Below, piece after piece: positions 2,771 to 58,359 of a stretch of DNA of 64,000 nt. Each line of letters begins with the position of its first letter. Position 1 is the stretch's first letter. Source of the stretch: Cellulomonas sp. P24. GTDB lineage: Bacteria > Actinomycetota > Actinomycetes > Actinomycetales > Cellulomonadaceae. The position numbers were made by a program, and so were the translations under genes. The stretch spans positions 3,038,001 through 3,102,000 of the forward strand of contig NZ_JAJDFX010000002.1 in the NCBI RefSeq assembly GCF_024704385.1, in the 5' to 3' direction. Below the pieces are notes generated by a model. That model worked only from the letters and a program-made list of their open reading frames with translations. It ran no database searches and was not told the DNA's origin.

Positions 2771-5368
2771 TCAGGGCAGGATCTCGACGTACCCGTCGCC
2801 TCCGTGCACGCGGATCCGCTGCCCGTCGTGAATCAGGCGGGTGGCATCGGCCACGCCGACGACGGCCGGCAAGCCGTACTCCCGGGCGATCACGGCGCCG
2901 TGAGTCATCGCGCCGCCCACCTCCGTCACCAGCCCAGCGATCGCGACGAACAGCGGTGACCAGCTCGGGTCGGTGTGGGTGGTCACCAGGATGTCGCCGG
3001 CCTCGAGATCGGCCTGAGCCATGTCGAGGATCACGCGGGCGCGGCCGTCGACGATCCCGGTGGAGACCGGCAGGCCGACGAGGGCGCCGGGCGGTACGTC
3101 GTCGCGTCGGTACGCCCCGGAGAGGACCTCGCCGTCGGAGGTCAGCACCCGGGGCGGCGTGAGCGCCTGGGATGACCGGAACGCGTCCTTGCGCCGATGG
3201 ATGAGCTGGTCGTCGACCTGGTGGGAGCGCGCGACGTCGTGGAGCTCGGCGAACGTGAGGAAGAAGATGTCCTCCTTCTCGGTGAGCACGTTCGCCGCCA
3301 CGAGGCGTTCGGCCTCGCCCAGCAGGGCCTGCTTGTAGATGAGGTAGCGGCTGACGATGTCGTACTTCGGGTACTCCCGGTAACCGATGAAGGTCCGGAC
3401 CCGCTCGATCATCCGCGTGGTCTCGTCGGCCTTCTGCTCCCCGTCCGGCAGGGCCCGCAGGCGTGACAGGACCTCCTGCTCCTTCCGTCGCGCCTCCTGC
3501 TGGCCATGCTCGAAGCGCCGCGCGGCGGCTCCTGGCTCGAAGAGCGCGATGTTGTCGAGGATCAGGGGGACGAGCGTGGTGGGGCGTTCGCTCCAGCGCG
3601 GCCTGGTGATGTCGATCTCGCCGACGCAGCGCATGCCGTACCGGTCGAGATAGGCCTCGATGGCGCGTCGTGCTGCGGTCCCACCCGGGAGCGTCGGCAG
3701 CTCGTCCAGGAAGCCGTCGTCGTCGACTCGCTCCAGGAACGCCACCACCTCCGGATAGGGCCGGATCGCGTCCGCGACGTCGAGCAGCTCCAGTCCCATC
3801 TGCGAGGTGACGTTGCCGGGGGCCGACAGGGTGAGCGTGTCGGCGGCGTTCTTCTCGCCGAGCCACTCCTGCAGGTGATCGTTGAGCCACCACGTGGCTT
3901 CCATCCCCGCCATGATCGCCTGCACGCTCGACGGGTCGCTGAGAACCCGCTTGTGCTCCTGGAACGCCTCGAGCAGGAAGTCGAACAGCGCGGGTCCCGT
4001 CACCGTCCTGATGTCGCGCCGCAGGGCGGCGATCGAGGCCTGGCTGCGCTCGATCAGCTCGGCGACGAGGGCCGGATCGGTCGCGATCGGGGCAGGTGCA
4101 CCGCCCGGTGGCGGGGGACCGGGAACCGCATCCGAACGCAACGGGACGAGGTCGCCGCGGCTCAGGATGGTCTCCAGCGCATCCCTGGTCAGCGGGTCGG
4201 ACCTGCCCACCATCTCCAGGAAGCCGGCACGGCCGGCAGGCGAGGACAGTCGTGGGGTCGCGTCGACGAACAGCCGCCCGCCGGCCTCGAGCATCGGCGC
4301 CATGGCAGTCAGCTGCCACATGGAGAGGCCGAGCGGCTTCATGGCGTCGGTCATCATCTGCTGATGGCCGACGGAGAGGTACACGTGTGTCTCCTGGTCG
4401 CGGGCCGCCGGCACGGGGAACAGCGTGGTGATCGGGCGGCTCTGCACGATCTGGACGTCGTCGTCGACCAGGCACCACTCGATGTCCTGCGGGCAGCCGA
4501 CGCGCGCCTCGATCTGCCGTCCGAGGTGCGCGAGCCGCACGGCCTGTGCGTCCGACAGCGTGGGTTGCTCCTGCCGCGACGGGTCGATCGGCAGCTGCTC
4601 CGTGCCGCCCCCGGGACGGGCGTGAACGGCGCGATGCTTGGTGGCGATCGCCTTGGAGACGACCTCGCCGTCTCGTACCTGGTAGACGTCCGGGTTCACG
4701 AGGCCGGAGACCAGGGCCTCGCCCAGCCCGAAGGTGGCCTCGATGCAGGCAACCTTGCGGTTGCCCGTGACAGGGTCGGCGGTGAACAGGGTCCCGGCCG
4801 CGTCCGGGACGACCATCCGCTGCACGACCACGGCCATCTGGACCGCACGATGGTCGATGCCGTTGTGCAGGCGGTAGGTGACCGCGCGCTCGGTGAAGAG
4901 CGAGGCCCAGCACCGGCTGACGTGGCGGAGGATCTCCGCGGGCCCGACGACGTTCAGGTAGGTGTCCTGCTGGCCGGCGAACGAGGCCGTGGGGAGGTCC
5001 TCCGCCGTCGCGCTGGATCGCACGGCGTAGGCGCCGTCGCCACCGAGCTCGGTGAGCGCGCGCCTGATCGCGGTCGTGAGGTCGTCGGGAATGGCGGCCC
5101 CTTCGAGGGCTCGGCGGATCTGCGCGCTGAGCGTGCCGATCGCGTCCCGGTCCTCCGGGTTCAGGCGCGACAGCTGATCGAGCAGCTTGTCGACCGACGA
5201 CGCCGACGCCATGAGCCGCCCGAACGCGGCCGTCGTCACGCAGAACCCGGCCGGGACGCGGACGCCATCGATCCGCGAGAGCTCACCGAGGTGGGCACCC
5301 TTGCCGCCGACGACCGCGACCTGCGACTCGTCGACCTCATGAAGGTTCAGCACGAGCTGCTCGATCAT
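2771..5368 (-). CDS. rph: Rifampin phosphotransferase (PEP synthase-like)
   Basis: The 865-residue length matches the rifampin phosphotransferase family. An N-terminal PPDK-type ATP-grasp domain contains GGKGAHLGEL near residue 22 and AVRSSATAEDLPTASFAGQQ near 115-135. A long central region follows, the rifamycin-binding part in this family. The C-terminal swivelling phosphohistidine domain has GGAMTHGAVIAREYG, with the catalytic His at about 823. Such enzymes use ATP to phosphorylate the rifamycin ansa-chain hydroxyl, releasing AMP and phosphate. PEP synthase is less likely because an RAE promoter lies upstream. ATG 5368 overlaps the stop of a leader ORF (ATGA), suggesting translational coupling. 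Confidence 0.93.
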   Translation of the reverse strand: MIEQLVLNLHEVDESQVAVVGGKGAHLGELSRIDGVRVPAGFCVTTAAFGRLMASASSVDKLLDQLSRLNPEDRDAIGTLSAQIRRALEGAAIPDDLTTAIRRALTELGGDGAYAVRSSATAEDLPTASFAGQQDTYLNVVGPAEILRHVSRCWASLFTERAVTYRLHNGIDHRAVQMAVVVQRMVVPDAAGTLFTADPVTGNRKVACIEATFGLGEALVSGLVNPDVYQVRDGEVVSKAIATKHRAVHARPGGGTEQLPIDPSRQEQPTLSDAQAVRLAHLGRQIEARVGCPQDIEWCLVDDDVQIVQSRPITTLFPVPAARDQETHVYLSVGHQQMMTDAMKPLGLSMWQLTAMAPMLEAGGRLFVDATPRLSSPAGRAGFLEMVGRSDPLTRDALETILSRGDLVPLRSDAVPGPPPPGGAPAPIATDPALVAELIERSQASIAALRRDIRTVTGPALFDFLLEAFQEHKRVLSDPSSVQAIMAGMEATWWLNDHLQEWLGEKNAADTLTLSAPGNVTSQMGLELLDVADAIRPYPEVVAFLERVDDDGFLDELPTLPGGTAARRAIEAYLDRYGMRCVGEIDITRPRWSERPTTLVPLILDNIALFEPGAAARRFEHGQQEARRKEQEVLSRLRALPDGEQKADETTRMIERVRTFIGYREYPKYDIVSRYLIYKQALLGEAERLVAANVLTEKEDIFFLTFAELHDVARSHQVDDQLIHRRKDAFRSSQALTPPRVLTSDGEVLSGAYRRDDVPPGALVGLPVSTGIVDGRARVILDMAQADLEAGDILVTTHTDPSWSPLFVAIAGLVTEVGGAMTHGAVIAREYGLPAVVGVADATRLIHDGQRIRVHGGDGYVEILP

Positions 5369-5493
5369 CGCGACACCTGCGAAACGGTCGCGGTCGGTCG
5401 CCCGGGACCGGCCACGCGTCGGAGAACGCGCGGTTCGTCAGCACGTCCCTCGTCCGTCGACACCACACCCACGTCGTGCCCCCATCTCCTCAT
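5365..5493 (-). CDS. Candidate leader peptide ORF upstream of rph (42 aa)
   Basis: ATG 5493 opens a 42-codon frame inside the predicted rph leader RNA and ends at TGA 5367-5365, overlapping the rph ATG. Its C-terminus, PGRPTATVSQVSR, resembles the C-terminus of the leader ORF before helR (PGRLTATSDRSR), including 18 of 21 identical bases over the PGRxTAT codons. The ribosome site before ATG 5493 is weak and sits in a 7-bp hairpin. The frame also stays open further upstream, but that part lies outside the expected transcript. Translation is an inference; no known family is recognised. Confidence 0.45.
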   Translation of the reverse strand: MRRWGHDVGVVSTDEGRADEPRVLRRVAGPGRPTATVSQVSR

Positions 5494-5512
5494 CGGCGCC
5501 CTGTCGGCGCCG
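5494..5512 (-). other. RNA hairpin in rph leader covering the leader-ORF ribosome site
   Basis: On the transcribed strand CGGCGCC, a 5-nt loop GACAG, and GGCGCCG form a perfect 7-bp GC stem immediately 5' of the leader ATG. It would be expected to limit initiation at that ATG. The regulatory role is inferred from position only. Confidence 0.4.
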
Positions 5513-5542
5513 TGCTCGGGGGCCGATCTTGCGCCACGACCA

Positions 5543-5573
5543 GGGCCTTGCCGCAAGCCCCCTGTGCGTTGTA
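5543..5573 (-). promoter_or_regulatory. Rifamycin-associated element (RAE) and -10 box of rph
   Basis: On the minus strand 5561-5543 reads GGGGCTTGCGGCAAGGCCC, the 19-bp RAE known upstream of rifamycin-inactivating and resistance genes in actinomycetes. A TACAAC -10-like hexamer (5573-5568) lies 6 nt upstream, so the RAE should fall in the first transcribed bases. The predicted leader to rph is about 175-190 nt. No convincing -35 is visible. The same spacing recurs before helR. Confidence 0.85.
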
Positions 5574-45673: not shown

Positions 45674-45752
45674 CTGAGTGACGAAAAGGCAAACCCATCG
45701 CGAGGTGGGGACGCAAAGCCACGGGACCCTCGAGGTCAGCCGGGCCGCCGAA
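45674..45752 (+). ncRNA. Cyclic di-GMP-I (GEMM) riboswitch
   Basis: The core consensus is present in order: GGCAAACC (45688-45695), a short helix, then GGGGACGCAAAGCC (45707-45720) and AGCCGGG near 45738. The rest of the fold is a P1b helix with GCGA loop and a second helix (ACCCTCGAGGT). It lies about 230 nt upstream of a STAS-like gene and a diguanylate cyclase, matching feedback control by the cyclase product. The upstream 45415-45673 shows no gene. Confidence 0.85.
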
Positions 45753-45840
45753 CCAGGAGAGCTGTTGGTCGTCGTGTCGAAGAGTCGTACGACCGGTGCG
45801 CGCGGCGCCGTGCCGCGTGAGCAGGCCGGTGCCACGCCTG

Positions 45841-53422: not shown

Positions 53423-55652
53423 TCATGGCTCGGGGATCCCGGGGGTCGTGAGGATCACGAGCTGCTGGGTCGCCCGGGTCATCGCGACGTACCGGTCGAC
53501 AGCCCCCTCGATGCCGGCGCCGAACGTGTGCGGGTCGACGAGGACGACGAGGTCGAACTCGAGCCCCTTGGCCAGCTCCGGTGCGAGCGACGAGACCCGT
53601 GGTCCCGGCGGGAACGTCGGGTCCCCGATGACGCACGCGATCCCGTCCGCATGGGTGGCGCGCCAGGCGTCGAGGACGGGACCGAGGTCCGACGCCGGTC
53701 CGCGGCCGACAGGCACACCGGTGCGCCGGACGGACGTCGGCACGTTCGCGTCCGGCAGCGCCGCGCGGATGACGGGCTCGGCCTCGACCATGACCTCCGC
53801 GGGCGTGCGGTAGTTGAGCGTCAGCGAGGCCACGGTGCTCCGCGCGAGCCCGATCCTCGCGAGCCGTTCCGGCCAGGTCTCGGTGAAGCCGTGCCGGGCC
53901 TGGGCGCGGTCCCCGACGATCGTGAAGCTGCGCGACGGGCACCGCACGAGGAGCATCTGCCACTCCGCGTCGGTCAGCTCCTGCGCCTCGTCCACCACGA
54001 CGTGGGCGAACGGCCCGGCGAGCAGGTCCAGCCCGGTGCGGGGTGACGTGACGTCCTCGGCCAGGGCGTGCTGCAGGTCCTGACCGCGCAGCATCGACAT
54101 GACGTGCAGCTCGGAGTCGTCGGTCGCGATGAGGTGGTCCACGACGTCGGCCCTGCGCTCGCGGTCGGCGGCGTCGGCGGCCTCCTGGCGCCGTCGGCGC
54201 CGCGACGCCTCCGGATCGCCCAGGCGGTGGCGCGCCGCGTCCAGGAGCGGCAGGTCCGACACCGTCCAGGCGCTCGGGTCCTCGCGCTGCAGCGCCCGGA
54301 GCTCCCCGGGGGGTGAGCCACGGCGCGCACAGGCGCAGGTAGGCCGGTACCGACCACAGGTCGGCCACGAGCTCGGTCGCCTCCAGCAGCGGCCAGGCGC
54401 GCCCGAAGGCCCGTGCGAGGTCGCGGTTCGCCGCGAAGGACCGGCGGTACACCGCGAGCGGGTCCTCGACGCCCAGGCCGTACGCGTCGAACCCGGGCTC
54501 GTCCGGGTCGTCGCCCTCCTCGTCGTCGAGCTCGCTCCTGACCTTGTCCACCAGGATCCCGAGGAGCGCCTCCCACACCTGGTCACGGGCATCGTTGTGC
54601 GGGGTGCCCGGTTCCGCAGCCGCGAACGCCTCGGCCCAGTCGGCGGCGTCGAGCCGGACGTCGGCCCACGGCGTGACGACCTCGATCGACGACGTCGGTG
54701 GCTTCTCGTAGAACGCGACGGCGGGCTCGATCGACCCGACCATGCGGGCGTCCGCCTTGAGGCGCCGGACCTCCGGGTCCGTCTCCGCGCCGGCTGTCGC
54801 GCCCTCGGGGACGAGGTCGCGCAACGTGCAGGTCTGCACGCCCTCCTCACCGAGACTGGGCAGGACGTCAGAGACGTACGCGAGGTAGGGCTCGTGGGGT
54901 CCGACGAACAGCACCCCGCCCCGGCGATGCCCGAGGCGCGGGTCGGAGTACAAGAGGTAGGCGGTGCGGTGAAGGGCGACGACGGTCTTGCCCGTCCCCG
55001 GGCCGCCGTCGACGACCAGGGCGTCACGGGACCCGGCGCGGATGATGGCGTCCTGATCGGCCTGGATCGTGGCGAGCACGTCACGCATCCGCGGTGACCG
55101 ACTGGCGCCGAGGCTCGCGACGAAGGCCGACTGGTCGTCGAGAGCCGCGTGCCCCTCCCACGCGTCCGCTGCGAAGACCTCGTCCCAGTAGTCGCTGATC
55201 CGGCCGCCGCTCCAGCGGTACCGACGGCGGCTCACCAGACCCATCGGGCGGGCGTGGGTCGCACCGAAGAAGGGCTCGGCCGCGGGGGACCGCCAGTCGA
55301 TCAGCAGCTGCCGGCCCGCGGCGTCCTGGAGCCCCAACCGTCCGACGTAGACGGGTGCGGGGTCGTCCGCGGCGACCATGCGCCCGAGGCACAGGTCCAG
55401 CCCGAAGCGCCGCAGGGTGCGCAGGCGCGCGGTCAGCCGATGGACCTCCAGGTCGCGGTCGAGCGCCTGCTGGCCCGTGCCGCCCGGCGCCCTGCGCTCG
55501 GCAACGAGACGGTCGGACAGCTCGGCGATCGACTGCTCGAGGCACTGCGCGATGGCCGCGAAGTGCCGCTCGTCATCGGCGATGAGCGTCGGGTCGTCCT
55601 TGGCTGCGAGGTGGTCGGGGAGAGCGAACGCGCGAGCTGCTCGGGTGTCCAC
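53423..55652 (-). CDS. helR: HelR: HelD-like RNA polymerase-associated ATPase giving rifamycin tolerance, interrupted by a single-base frameshift
   Basis: The repaired protein is about 742 residues. It has an N-terminal coiled arm, Walker A VDGGPGTGKTVVALHRTAYL near 205, a C-terminal helicase half with VVDEAQELTDAEW, IVGDRAQARH and NYRTPAEV, and VAMTRATQQLVIL near the end. This is the UvrD-like HelD family, whose HelR branch displaces rifamycin from RNA polymerase. One extra base in the C4G6 run 54304-54313 (plus strand) splits the frame between PWLTP and GELRALQR. GTG 55652 lies one base after a leader ORF stop. An RAE upstream supports HelR over ordinary HelD. Confidence 0.88.
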
Positions 55653-55653
55653 G

Positions 55654-55752
55654 TCACCGGCTCCGATCCGAGGTCGCGGTCAGACGCCCCGGACGGCTGG
55701 TCAGCACCCACCACCCGTCGTCCCCGCAGGGACCTTCTGTCACCACATGCAT
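55654..55752 (-). CDS. Candidate leader peptide ORF upstream of helR (32 aa)
   Basis: ATG 55752 is preceded by a perfect GGAGG five bases upstream, the best ribosome site in this leader. The 32-codon frame reads MHVVTEGPCGDDGWWVL at its start and ends PGRLTATSDRSR at TGA 55656-55654, one base before the helR GTG. Its end resembles that of the rph leader ORF. GTCCC-TGCG-GGGAC can form a hairpin within the frame. Translation and coupling are predicted, not shown; no known family is recognised. Confidence 0.6.
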   Translation of the reverse strand: MHVVTEGPCGDDGWWVLTSRPGRLTATSDRSR

Positions 55753-55808
55753 CGGCACCTCCGTCGTCCGCAGCTCCTGCCCAGGCCGGCGATTCTGCGC
55801 CACGAGCA

Positions 55809-55840
55809 GGGCCTTGCCGCAAGACCCCCACTGCGCTATA
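55809..55840 (-). promoter_or_regulatory. Rifamycin-associated element (RAE) and -10 box of helR
   Basis: On the minus strand 55828-55809 reads GGGGTCTTGCGGCAAGGCCC, the RAE with one extra T compared with the rph copy. TATAGC (55840-55835) lies 6 nt upstream, the same spacing as for rph. The next 21 bases downstream match the rph leader at 17 positions. The leader to helR is about 155-175 nt. No clear -35. Confidence 0.82.
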
Positions 55841-55946
55841 TCGTGAAAGTGGAGGGACGCGGGAGGTCACCTCGCCGGCCACGACGTCACGGCCCTGGCG
55901 GACGGGCGGCGGCGCCGATGACGGGCGCCGGGCTAGTCTCCGGATC

Positions 55947-56555
55947 ATGGCGCAGCGGCAGGACGCGAGGCGGAACCGGGAGCGTCTCGTGGTGGCCGCC
56001 CGCGAGGTCTTCCAGGAGAGCGGGGCAGCGGCGCCGCTCGATCTCGTCGCACGCCGTGCCGGTGTGGGTCGCGCCACCCTGTACCGCAACTTCCCCGACC
56101 GCGTCGCTCTGCTTGCCACGCTCTTCGAGGAACGGCTCGCAGAGCTCGAGGAGCTCGTCACCTCCTACCGCGGTGACGACGTCTTCGAGCGCCTTGTGGT
56201 CGAGCTCTGCCGGTACGAGCTCGGGATCCCCGGCTTCGGTGCGCTGCTGAGCGGTCTCGCGACCGTGGAGCGGTCAGCGCTGGCTCGGGTCGACGCTGCT
56301 GCCGAGAGTCTTCTGTCGCGGGCGCTCGAGCGCTCGGCCGGCGCCGGCCTGCTGCGTGCGGACCTGCGCGCCGGGGATGGGGTGATGATCGTCGCGATGC
56401 TCAACGGTGTCCTGATCGCGCACGCGGGGGAGGCGCCGCGGGAGGCTGTGGGCCGCGCGCTCGGGCTCGTGCTCGACGGCGTGCGCGCGCCGGCCCGGAT
56501 CGGCGCCCCGGTTCCCGCCCCGATCCCCGGAGCGACCCACGACGGGCCGTCGTGA
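55947..56555 (+). CDS. TetR-family transcriptional regulator
   Basis: The 202-residue protein has a TetR HTH (DLVARRAGVGRATLYRNFPDRVALL, residues ~32-56) and a helical ligand domain, with a Pro/Ala-rich tail. A TAGTCT -10 lies seven bases before ATG 55947, so the mRNA may be leaderless. It is divergent from helR (about 295 bp between start codons) and 146 bp upstream of the flavin dehydrogenase gene on the same strand. I see no matching operator. Confidence 0.85.
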   Translation: MAQRQDARRNRERLVVAAREVFQESGAAAPLDLVARRAGVGRATLYRNFPDRVALLATLFEERLAELEELVTSYRGDDVFERLVVELCRYELGIPGFGALLSGLATVERSALARVDAAAESLLSRALERSAGAGLLRADLRAGDGVMIVAMLNGVLIAHAGEAPREAVGRALGLVLDGVRAPARIGAPVPAPIPGATHDGPS

Positions 56556-56701: not shown

Positions 56702-58359
56702 ATGGACCAGGTGGATGTCGTCGTCGTCGGTGCGGGGACGGGGATGCTCGCAGCGATCACCGCGGCCGAGGAGGGCCTCCGGGTCCTCGTCGTGGAGAAG
56801 GCCGCGTACGTCGGCGGCTCGACGTCGCTGTCCGGTGGCGGCTTCTGGGTGCCGGGGAACTCGATCCTCGCCGAGAACGGCCAGCGGGACGACCCCGCGA
56901 GGGTGCGTACGTACCTGCGGGCCGTCACCAAGGGCGAGGTCCCCGACGAGCGATGGCGTTCGCACGTCGAGCACGGTCCGGCGGCGGTCGAGGTGCTGCG
57001 GCGACGGACCCCGCTGAGGTTCCAGTTCATGGCCGAGTACGCGGACTACTTCCCCGAGCTTCCCGGCGGCTCGGCGACCGGCCGGGCGTGCGAGCCCAGG
57101 CCGTTCGACCTCAAGCGCCTGGGACCCGACCGCGACCTCCTTCTCCCCCGACGATGGCGGCCCCGTTCCCGATGCCGATCACGGGTCGCGGCTACAAGTG
57201 GACCAACCTCGTGGCCAGGTCGCCCAAGGGGTTCGTGACCAGTGCCCTGGCAGTCGCCCAGGGCGTGGGCGGTGCGGCGATCCGACGTGAGTACGCGGCC
57301 GGTGGTCAGGCGCTGGCCGCGGGCCTCCTCGCGGGGCTGCGGTCGATGAACGTCCCGGTGTGGACCTCGAGCCCCCTCACGGACCTGGTGGTCGAGGACG
57401 GCCGGGTGGTCGGCGTCGTGGTCAACCACGACGGCAAGGACACCACCGTGAGAGCCCGCGCGGGCGTGGTCCTCGCATCCGGGGGCTTCGACCGGGACGC
57501 CGCGATGCGGCGGACCTACCAGTCGGAGTCGATCGACGGACGCTGGAGCCTGGGGGCTGCCGCCGACACCGGAGAGGTGATCCAGATCGCCGCGTCGCAC
57601 GGCGCCGACCTCGCCTTCATGGACGCGGCCTGGTGGTTCCCGGTCATCCCGCTGCCGGACGGCACGACCGGTCCGATGCTCGCGGAGCGCTCGTTGCCGG
57701 GACAGATCATCGTCAACGGGCACGGCAGGCGGTTCATGGACGAGGCCGTGAACTACATGACCGCCGGCCAGCTGATCATCGCCAAGCACACCGCGGACGA
57801 CCCGCACATCCCTGCCTGGATCGTCTTCGACCAGCGCTACCGCAACCGCTACCTCTTCGGCGGCGCGCTGTTCCCACGCCAGCCGCTGCCGCCGTCCTGG
57901 TACGACGCCGGCATCGCGAAGAAGGGGGCGACGGTCGCGGCGCTCGCGGACGCGCTCGGCATGCCCGACCTGCCGACCACGGTCGACCGGTTCAACCTGC
58001 TCGCGGCCGCCGGTCGTGACGACGACTTCGGTCGTGGCGACTCGGCCTACGACCGGTACTACGGCGACCCCAGGGTCAGCCCGAACCCGTGCCTGGGCCC
58101 GATCGACAGAGGCCCGTTCTACGCGGTCCAGGTGGTGCCCGGCGACCTCGGGACCTGTGGTGGTGTCCGGGCGGACGCGTTCGCCCGCGTGCTACGCCCG
58201 GACGGGTCGGTGATCCCCGGGCTCTACGCGACGGGGAACGCGGCCGGGAACGCATTCGGCCGGGTCTACCCGGGGCCGGGCGCGACCGTGGGTCAGGGGC
58301 TGAGCTTCGGGTACGTCGCCGCTCGGCACCTGGCCGGGAGGTTCGGCGCTATGGAGTAG
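56702..58359 (+). CDS. FAD-dependent dehydrogenase (3-ketosteroid dehydrogenase/fumarate reductase-like), interrupted by a single-base frameshift
   Basis: The protein begins VDVVVVGAGTGMLAAITAAE (dinucleotide-binding site), EKAAYVGGSTSLSGGGFWVP, and ends GLYATGNAAGNAFGRVYPGP with VGQGLSFGYVA, as in KstD-type flavoenzymes. The frame breaks after DLLLP at the five-C run 57145-57149; one more base joins it to PTMAAPFPMPITGRGYKW. The repaired length is about 552 residues. It could be a ketosteroid delta-1 dehydrogenase, but related enzymes act on other cyclic ketones and no steroid genes lie nearby. Confidence 0.8.

Follow-up and report, generated by a model that had tools for sequence, protein, structure and literature searches.

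Rifamycins act on RNA polymerase, the ribosome not being their target, and induction by rifamycins has been reported for genes controlled by a rifamycin-associated element (RAE). In mycobacterial helD the RAE overlaps a -35 region (PMC10719064), while the rifampicin alarm of Bacillus subtilis helD works by two convergent promoters (PMC12802891). Termination-reinitiation at overlapping or abutting gene pairs is a known process (PMC6728339). The window analysed here (the whole stretch of 64,000 nucleotides from Cellulomonas sp. P24) holds two rifamycin resistance genes, helR and rph, each preceded by an RAE and by a short leader ORF that ends at the start of the gene. For the leader of helR, the reading that we favour, with somewhat better than even confidence, is that a decayed start of the rifamycin glycosyltransferase gene rgt has been kept as a translational coupler or enhancer of helR, for which place and frame would matter, and the peptide and its Trp codons would not.

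Layout of the leader ORF and the helR start

Re-reading of the minus strand bore out the layout given in the original prediction (GGAGG, 5 nt, ATG, 32 codons, TGA, one base, GTG of helR). The leader starts with the ATG at 55752-55750 and translates as MHVVTEGPCGDDGWWVLTSRPGRLTATSDRSR (32 codons); its TGA at 55656-55654 is followed by a single C (55653) and by the GTG of helR (55652-55650), and the stop thus adjoins the start of the next gene, as in a coupled leader. The features of this region are:

55758-55762, minus strand: leader ribosome site GGAGG, 5 nt ahead of the ATG, read from the sequence
55654-55752, minus strand: leader ORF, 32 codons plus TGA, interpreted as the decayed 5' end of rgt
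55661-55664, minus strand: Shine-Dalgarno site (SD) of helR itself, GGAG, 8 nt ahead of the GTG, with a counterpart in relatives
53423-55652, minus strand: helR, start GTG at 55652, matched by the NCBIfam HelR profile in two frames

The claim that helR has no other good ribosome site fails on account of the GGAG at 55664-55661, which has the same place and spacing as in the CGGAGCTGATGAC that directly precedes the GTG of many relatives. The share of helR loci with an SD varied with the definition used. If each locus was scored at its best candidate start, 92 of 116 unique RAE-helR loci had an SD (core match of at least 4 bases); by a stricter window around the aligned start, 116 of 202 RAE-helR loci did.

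Positions 1-418 of the HelR profile were matched in one frame and positions 424-706 in another, the frame change near 54.3 kb reflecting either a pseudogene or an assembly error. A FAD-binding protein (PF00890; window 56702-58359, plus strand) is also split between two frames, near 57.15 kb, and the assembly probably contains one-base errors here; since both genes are split, the frame of the leader could itself be affected by such an error. Divergently beside helR lies a gene for a TetR-family regulator (PF00440; window 55947-56552, plus strand), for which, as a regulator acting at the RAE, the fetched loci with their limited flanks gave one weak match beyond the locus of the window.

RAE sites and the promoter ahead of helR

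An exact-pattern search of the genome returned just two RAEs, one ahead of helR and one ahead of rph (gene names from NCBIfam), and both genes accordingly carry the upstream palindrome that defines RAE-controlled rifamycin resistance genes. Against the consensus used for matching, the RAE before helR has 2 mismatches, and 0.01 matches were expected by chance.

55808-55827, minus strand: RAE before helR, core CTTGCGGCAAG at 55823-55813
55792-55822, minus strand: promoter-like pair TTGCGG (inside the RAE) and CAGAAT, spacer of 19 nt, read from the sequence
5542-5561, minus strand: second RAE, before rph, consensus match

Transcription towards helR would start near 55785. On the opposite strand (55814-55842, plus) the RAE contains TTGCCG, 17 nt before TATATC, a promoter-like arrangement facing away from helR; when read in that direction, several other loci have similar ctata blocks after the RAE.

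Survey of helR, rgt and rph loci

RAE sites were present in 94 of 200 genomes of the family (100 sites in all), and 92 of these sites were fetched, with 8 left out. On the strand read, helR follows 64 of the 92 (window included), neither helR nor rph was matched on that side of another 27, and the remaining site is that of rph in the window. Among 250 unique helR loci, 200 had an RAE within 400 nt and 22 a near-full rgt between RAE and helR; the remainder consisted of 1 locus with rgt and no RAE in the stretch examined, 6 with a more distant RAE and no full rgt, and 21 without an RAE in that stretch. No second RAE was found between rgt and helR in the 22 RAE-rgt-helR loci. The final set comprised 254 helR loci (RAE near in 202, far in 28, none in 24) and 39 rph loci (near in 25, none in 14).

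As the Rgt reference we used L082, whose best NCBIfam match was NF000354 (Rgt) at 442 bits, under the curated cut-off of 800. An RAE lay within 300 nt in 38 of 50 unique rgt loci, and in 31 of these 38 rgt starts 61-66 nt past the RAE core. The genome of the window itself contained no rgt at E 1e-80, and in the sample of its family no RAE-rgt-helR operon was seen, the rgt loci of that family (L080-L082) being without a helR match.

rgt stubs in related loci

Downstream of the RAE, several rph and helR loci code for fragments such as VRVLLSTYGGRGDV, which correspond to the N-terminus of Rgt. When a stub was defined as a match of at least 8 bits to a profile of the first 36 Rgt residues, stubs were present in 18 of the 202 RAE-near helR loci and in 6 of the 25 RAE-near rph loci, and three equally large decoy sets yielded 0. 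The profile-positive helR stubs start 52-76 nt past the RAE. Larger or different remnants were also retained: Rgt residues 1-21 and 341-402, the middle being absent, in L342; about 67 N-terminal residues in L278; and C-terminal or internal pieces in L256 and L255. Of six loci with a far RAE, three had the N-terminus (L165, L269 and L290), one the C-terminal half (L108) and two no rgt (L118 and L142). The loci form a series from the intact RAE-rgt-helR operon to the short stub.

Two stub leaders carry repeats. In L283 a 15-nt unit is repeated in frame (LGSELLGSELLGSELVP) just upstream of helR, ending on the helR start region, and L322 differs from L289 by a 13-nt duplication in the 5'UTR ahead of the stub start, the leader codons being identical. 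Since this duplication sits in the 5'UTR, it is the untranslated part that takes the frame-breaking indel.

The leader in the window has two adjacent Trp codons midway (GWWVL), which had been put forward as a sensor of translation speed, and a sensory peptide working by attenuation or stalling at this pair might tune helR to the speed of translation. The proposal did not survive the comparison and is very improbable: adjacent Trp occurs in none of the 24 other stub translations, among which the conserved control codons of an attenuator are therefore lacking, and the competing hairpins or terminator found no support in the one fold made of the leader RNA (55768-55610), which had a z of +1.41, with 186 of 200 shuffles as stable. 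The drugs concerned, moreover, target RNA polymerase and not the ribosome. A scan of the window for RNA families gave no match at the leader and returned only a riboswitch elsewhere, a c-di-GMP-I-GGC riboswitch at 45679-45753 (plus strand; 65.5 bits, gathering score 59).

Probable descent of the window ORF from rgt

Against the Rgt N-terminal protein profile the ORF of the window scored under the 8-bit cut-off, and it is for this reason termed a probable stub purely on DNA evidence. Its ATG lies 60 nt downstream of the RAE core, next to the 61-66 nt of most RAE-rgt loci, and its 5'UTR and first codons are like those of rgt, strongly so in the 5'UTR and moderately in the ORF alone.

55680-55790, minus strand: 5'UTR plus first codons, the part that aligns with the rgt stub in L285 (positions worked out by hand from that alignment)

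When the window region was ranked against 267 regions downstream of an RAE (181 helR, 36 rgt, 21 rph and 29 other), the best match was L285, in which the stub MRVLLSTYGSCGDGGPLVG precedes helR; next came L081 and L082, which are rgt genes of the family. Each of the nine top matches was either an rgt gene or a locus matching the N-terminus of rgt, and stub-free helR regions (for example, L133 and L006) ranked lower. The score of the window-L285 alignment was reached by 0 of 2,000 shuffles (7 of 2,000 for the ORF part alone), and with correction for picking the best of 264 regions the best score of the window was reached by 0 of 300. The ORF alone gave a z of 3.87 against 74 rgt and stub starts (mean 0/400, best 1/400) and of 2.96 against 202 stretches at the same position in which no stub was detected, although some stubs may have been missed; as the latter value stays at 2.96, much of the signal is carried by the 5'UTR (z 8.2). 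The last list of z-scores from the ORF-rgt comparison was inflated by a new shuffle for each target and was left out. In frame, MHVV..TE.GPCGDDG of the window corresponds to MRVLLSTYGSCGDGG of rgt, the Trp pair falling at decayed rgt codons. The leader ORF of the window is probably the decayed 5' end of rgt.

An origin from rox was rejected: L071 starts alike (GACGGAGGTGCGGGATGCATG), but the four rox regions did not beat shuffles. Also ruled out was an orthologous, conserved leader peptide, no comparable ORF being present in G036 (L073), which alone in the genus, apart from the genome of the window, has the matching region (2 of 3 genomes, including that of the window). Absence of the frame from close relatives had been named beforehand as an outcome that would count against the leader; what was found counts against a conserved gene and leaves a recurrent, non-orthologous coupling leader unaffected. 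In a search with the leader peptide in 297 genomes of the order, all of the matches listed other than the window had an E of at least 0.0014, and 243 of the 297 genomes had some match at E up to 1.

A new or chance origin of the leader in a longer 5'UTR, without relation to rgt but possibly with coupling to helR all the same, would account for the score under the Rgt profile cut-off. Many RAE-helR loci of the family have some unfiltered ORF near helR, and when no SD was required, an ORF of at least 12 codons ended there in 28 of 116 unique loci. Such an origin seems rather improbable in view of the start position, the 5'UTR and the DNA match to rgt and stubs, and of the fact that comparable SD-bearing ORFs at other loci read as rgt stubs. 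With the SD filter, ORFs of at least 12 codons ending near helR remained at 3 of the 116 loci, namely the window, L167 and L169, and the latter two carry rgt-like stretches. When the 184 loci without a profile stub were screened for the architecture of the window leader (an SD, a start 50-90 nt past the RAE, a length of 20 codons or more, and a stop no further than 4 nt from helR), 3 had such an ORF, namely the window, L305 (VQVLWSTYGM...) and L321 (VHVSPSTYGSRAG...), and by eye those of L305 and L321 appear to be rgt stubs. The co-occurrence of RAE distance, SD, length and stop position exceeds chance.

Frame bias of the stubs

Among the 18 profile-positive helR stubs, 16 have the old rgt frame in one shared register relative to helR, the exceptions being L169, in another frame (TGA-C-ATG, like the window), and L253, in the helR frame with a stop 180 nt upstream. 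Relative to the helR start with the best SD, 14 stubs stop at +4, and the others at -1 (L169), -38 (L109), -53 (L278) and -180 (L253); for L285 the chosen start is TTG, and its stop lies at +13 against the aligned GTG. The six rph stubs divide into four in the +4 frame and two that continue in frame into rph. Compared with an expectation of 1/3 per frame, the bias had a p of 1.7e-6 for 16 of 18 stubs. Clustering at 60% identity merged all stubs into two groups, GC-rich DNA aligning loosely, and the 14 helR clusters, of which 12 share the frame (p 8.2e-5; 16 of 20 with rph, p 2.5e-5), were drawn by hand from pairs above 75%, a threshold picked after the 60% output had been seen.

As a control, 23 intact rgt genes upstream of helR were distributed over the three frames as 7 (stub frame), 14 and 2, and in 20 of these 23 operons the rgt stop lies at least 28 nt before helR. 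The bias of the stubs was not inherited, since intact rgt-helR operons lack it, and its presence in the stubs points to selection for reinitiation at the helR start. Termination-reinitiation at this start is probably under selection in the stub class, with the coupling selected and the peptide not. The stub of the window is outside the 24 counted stubs and in the minority frame, shared with L169, in which the stop falls at -1 and not at +4. The original prediction was that helR may depend on its leader. Coupling of the two gains comparative support, since the frame kept by the rgt-derived leaders of relatives is the one that mostly terminates at the start of helR; the argument from a missing SD of helR has to be dropped.

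The same frame bias, absent in intact operons, makes it unlikely that the leader is a functionless, decayed rgt stub, whose start and open frame persist as G+C-rich DNA has few stops and beside which helR uses its own SD. The SD of helR does fit such a course, as do the 184 of 202 RAE-helR loci under the stub cut-off. The leader peptides of two close pairs vary freely (8 nonsynonymous codon changes and 1 synonymous), but in this small test the codons of helR were likewise without a synonymous excess, and the comparison is hence uninformative.

The rph leader

5365-5493, minus strand: rph leader ORF, start ATG at 5493 or GTG at 5472, its TGA overlapping the rph ATG at 5368
2771-5368, minus strand: rph, rifamycin phosphotransferase, NCBIfam RIF_Ptrans_rph, 1572 bits (cut-off 999)

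The rph leader of the window, which ends GRPTATVSQVSR, aligns with the 5' region of L192, a locus with a profile-positive stub, and its direct match to rgt was marginal (mean p 0.012, best p 0.072); it is probably an rgt stub too. The likeness that had been noted between the end of the helR leader and the rph leader is retained here and best explained by both having begun as rgt stubs, although the letters shared at the C-terminus, GACCGCGACC, are weak evidence (p 0.02 one way, 0/300 the other). Among 200 genomes of the family rph was found only in that of the window, compared with 40 of 345 genomes of the class, which suggests that RAE-rph (window 2771-5561, minus strand) was gained by transfer.

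Proposed history and action of the helR leader

In some actinobacteria the RAE would drive an rgt-helR operon. The lineage of the window would have lost most of rgt and kept the promoter at the RAE along with the 5'UTR, the ribosome site and some decayed codons of rgt, remnants that would now adjoin the 5' flank of helR. Once this promoter is active, presumably on rifamycin, ribosomes would initiate at the old rgt start, read 32 codons, terminate one base ahead of the helR GTG, and could restart there, aided by the GGAG. The RAE, the SD of helR, the resemblance to rgt, the intact operons, the stubs of relatives and the frame bias were computed; from these we infer the transcription and translation of the leader, its coupling to helR, and a former rgt at this locus. 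More generally, it may be, as a tentative proposal held at a little under even confidence, that when RAE operons lose rgt the stub repeatedly becomes a coupling leader, selection keeping the old start and a frame that ends on helR or rph with any peptide, so that the ribosome site of a dead gene would serve as a main entry for a living one.

Comparison with known systems

The literature searched, mostly without subscription papers, treats the RAE and HelR, and gave no recognised account of rgt stubs or of helR and rph leader ORFs. On the reading favoured here, leader ORFs ahead of helR and rph would be scars of gene loss at a common rifamycin-inducible promoter, with the source operon named. 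The natural series (intact rgt, partial rgt, short stub, none) could be used to measure what coupling is worth to a resistance gene, and leader ORFs of rgt origin should not be taken for sensory peptides or for helR start sites.

The locus resembles the RAE-controlled rifamycin resistance genes described in actinobacteria (PMC10719064) in having the RAE palindrome before helR and rph, while the account there, in the part of it consulted, covers the promoter and the RAE, with no leader ORF or rgt stub. Like helD of B. subtilis (PMC12802891), helR would be a rifampicin-induced gene of the HelD family, but control there lies with convergent promoters, and a search of the main text for leader and uORF terms returned none. 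With uORFs that sense ribosome-targeting antibiotics, such as that of E. coli topAI (PMC12121999), it shares a short ORF upstream of a stress gene; the helR leader differs in being without conserved stalling codons, and the drug hits RNA polymerase. It is closest in build to pairs that use termination-reinitiation (PMC6728339), where stop and start likewise overlap or abut and the SD lies inside the upstream frame, with the difference that reinitiation is putative here and that the frame upstream of helR is not a full gene but a vestige of 32 codons.
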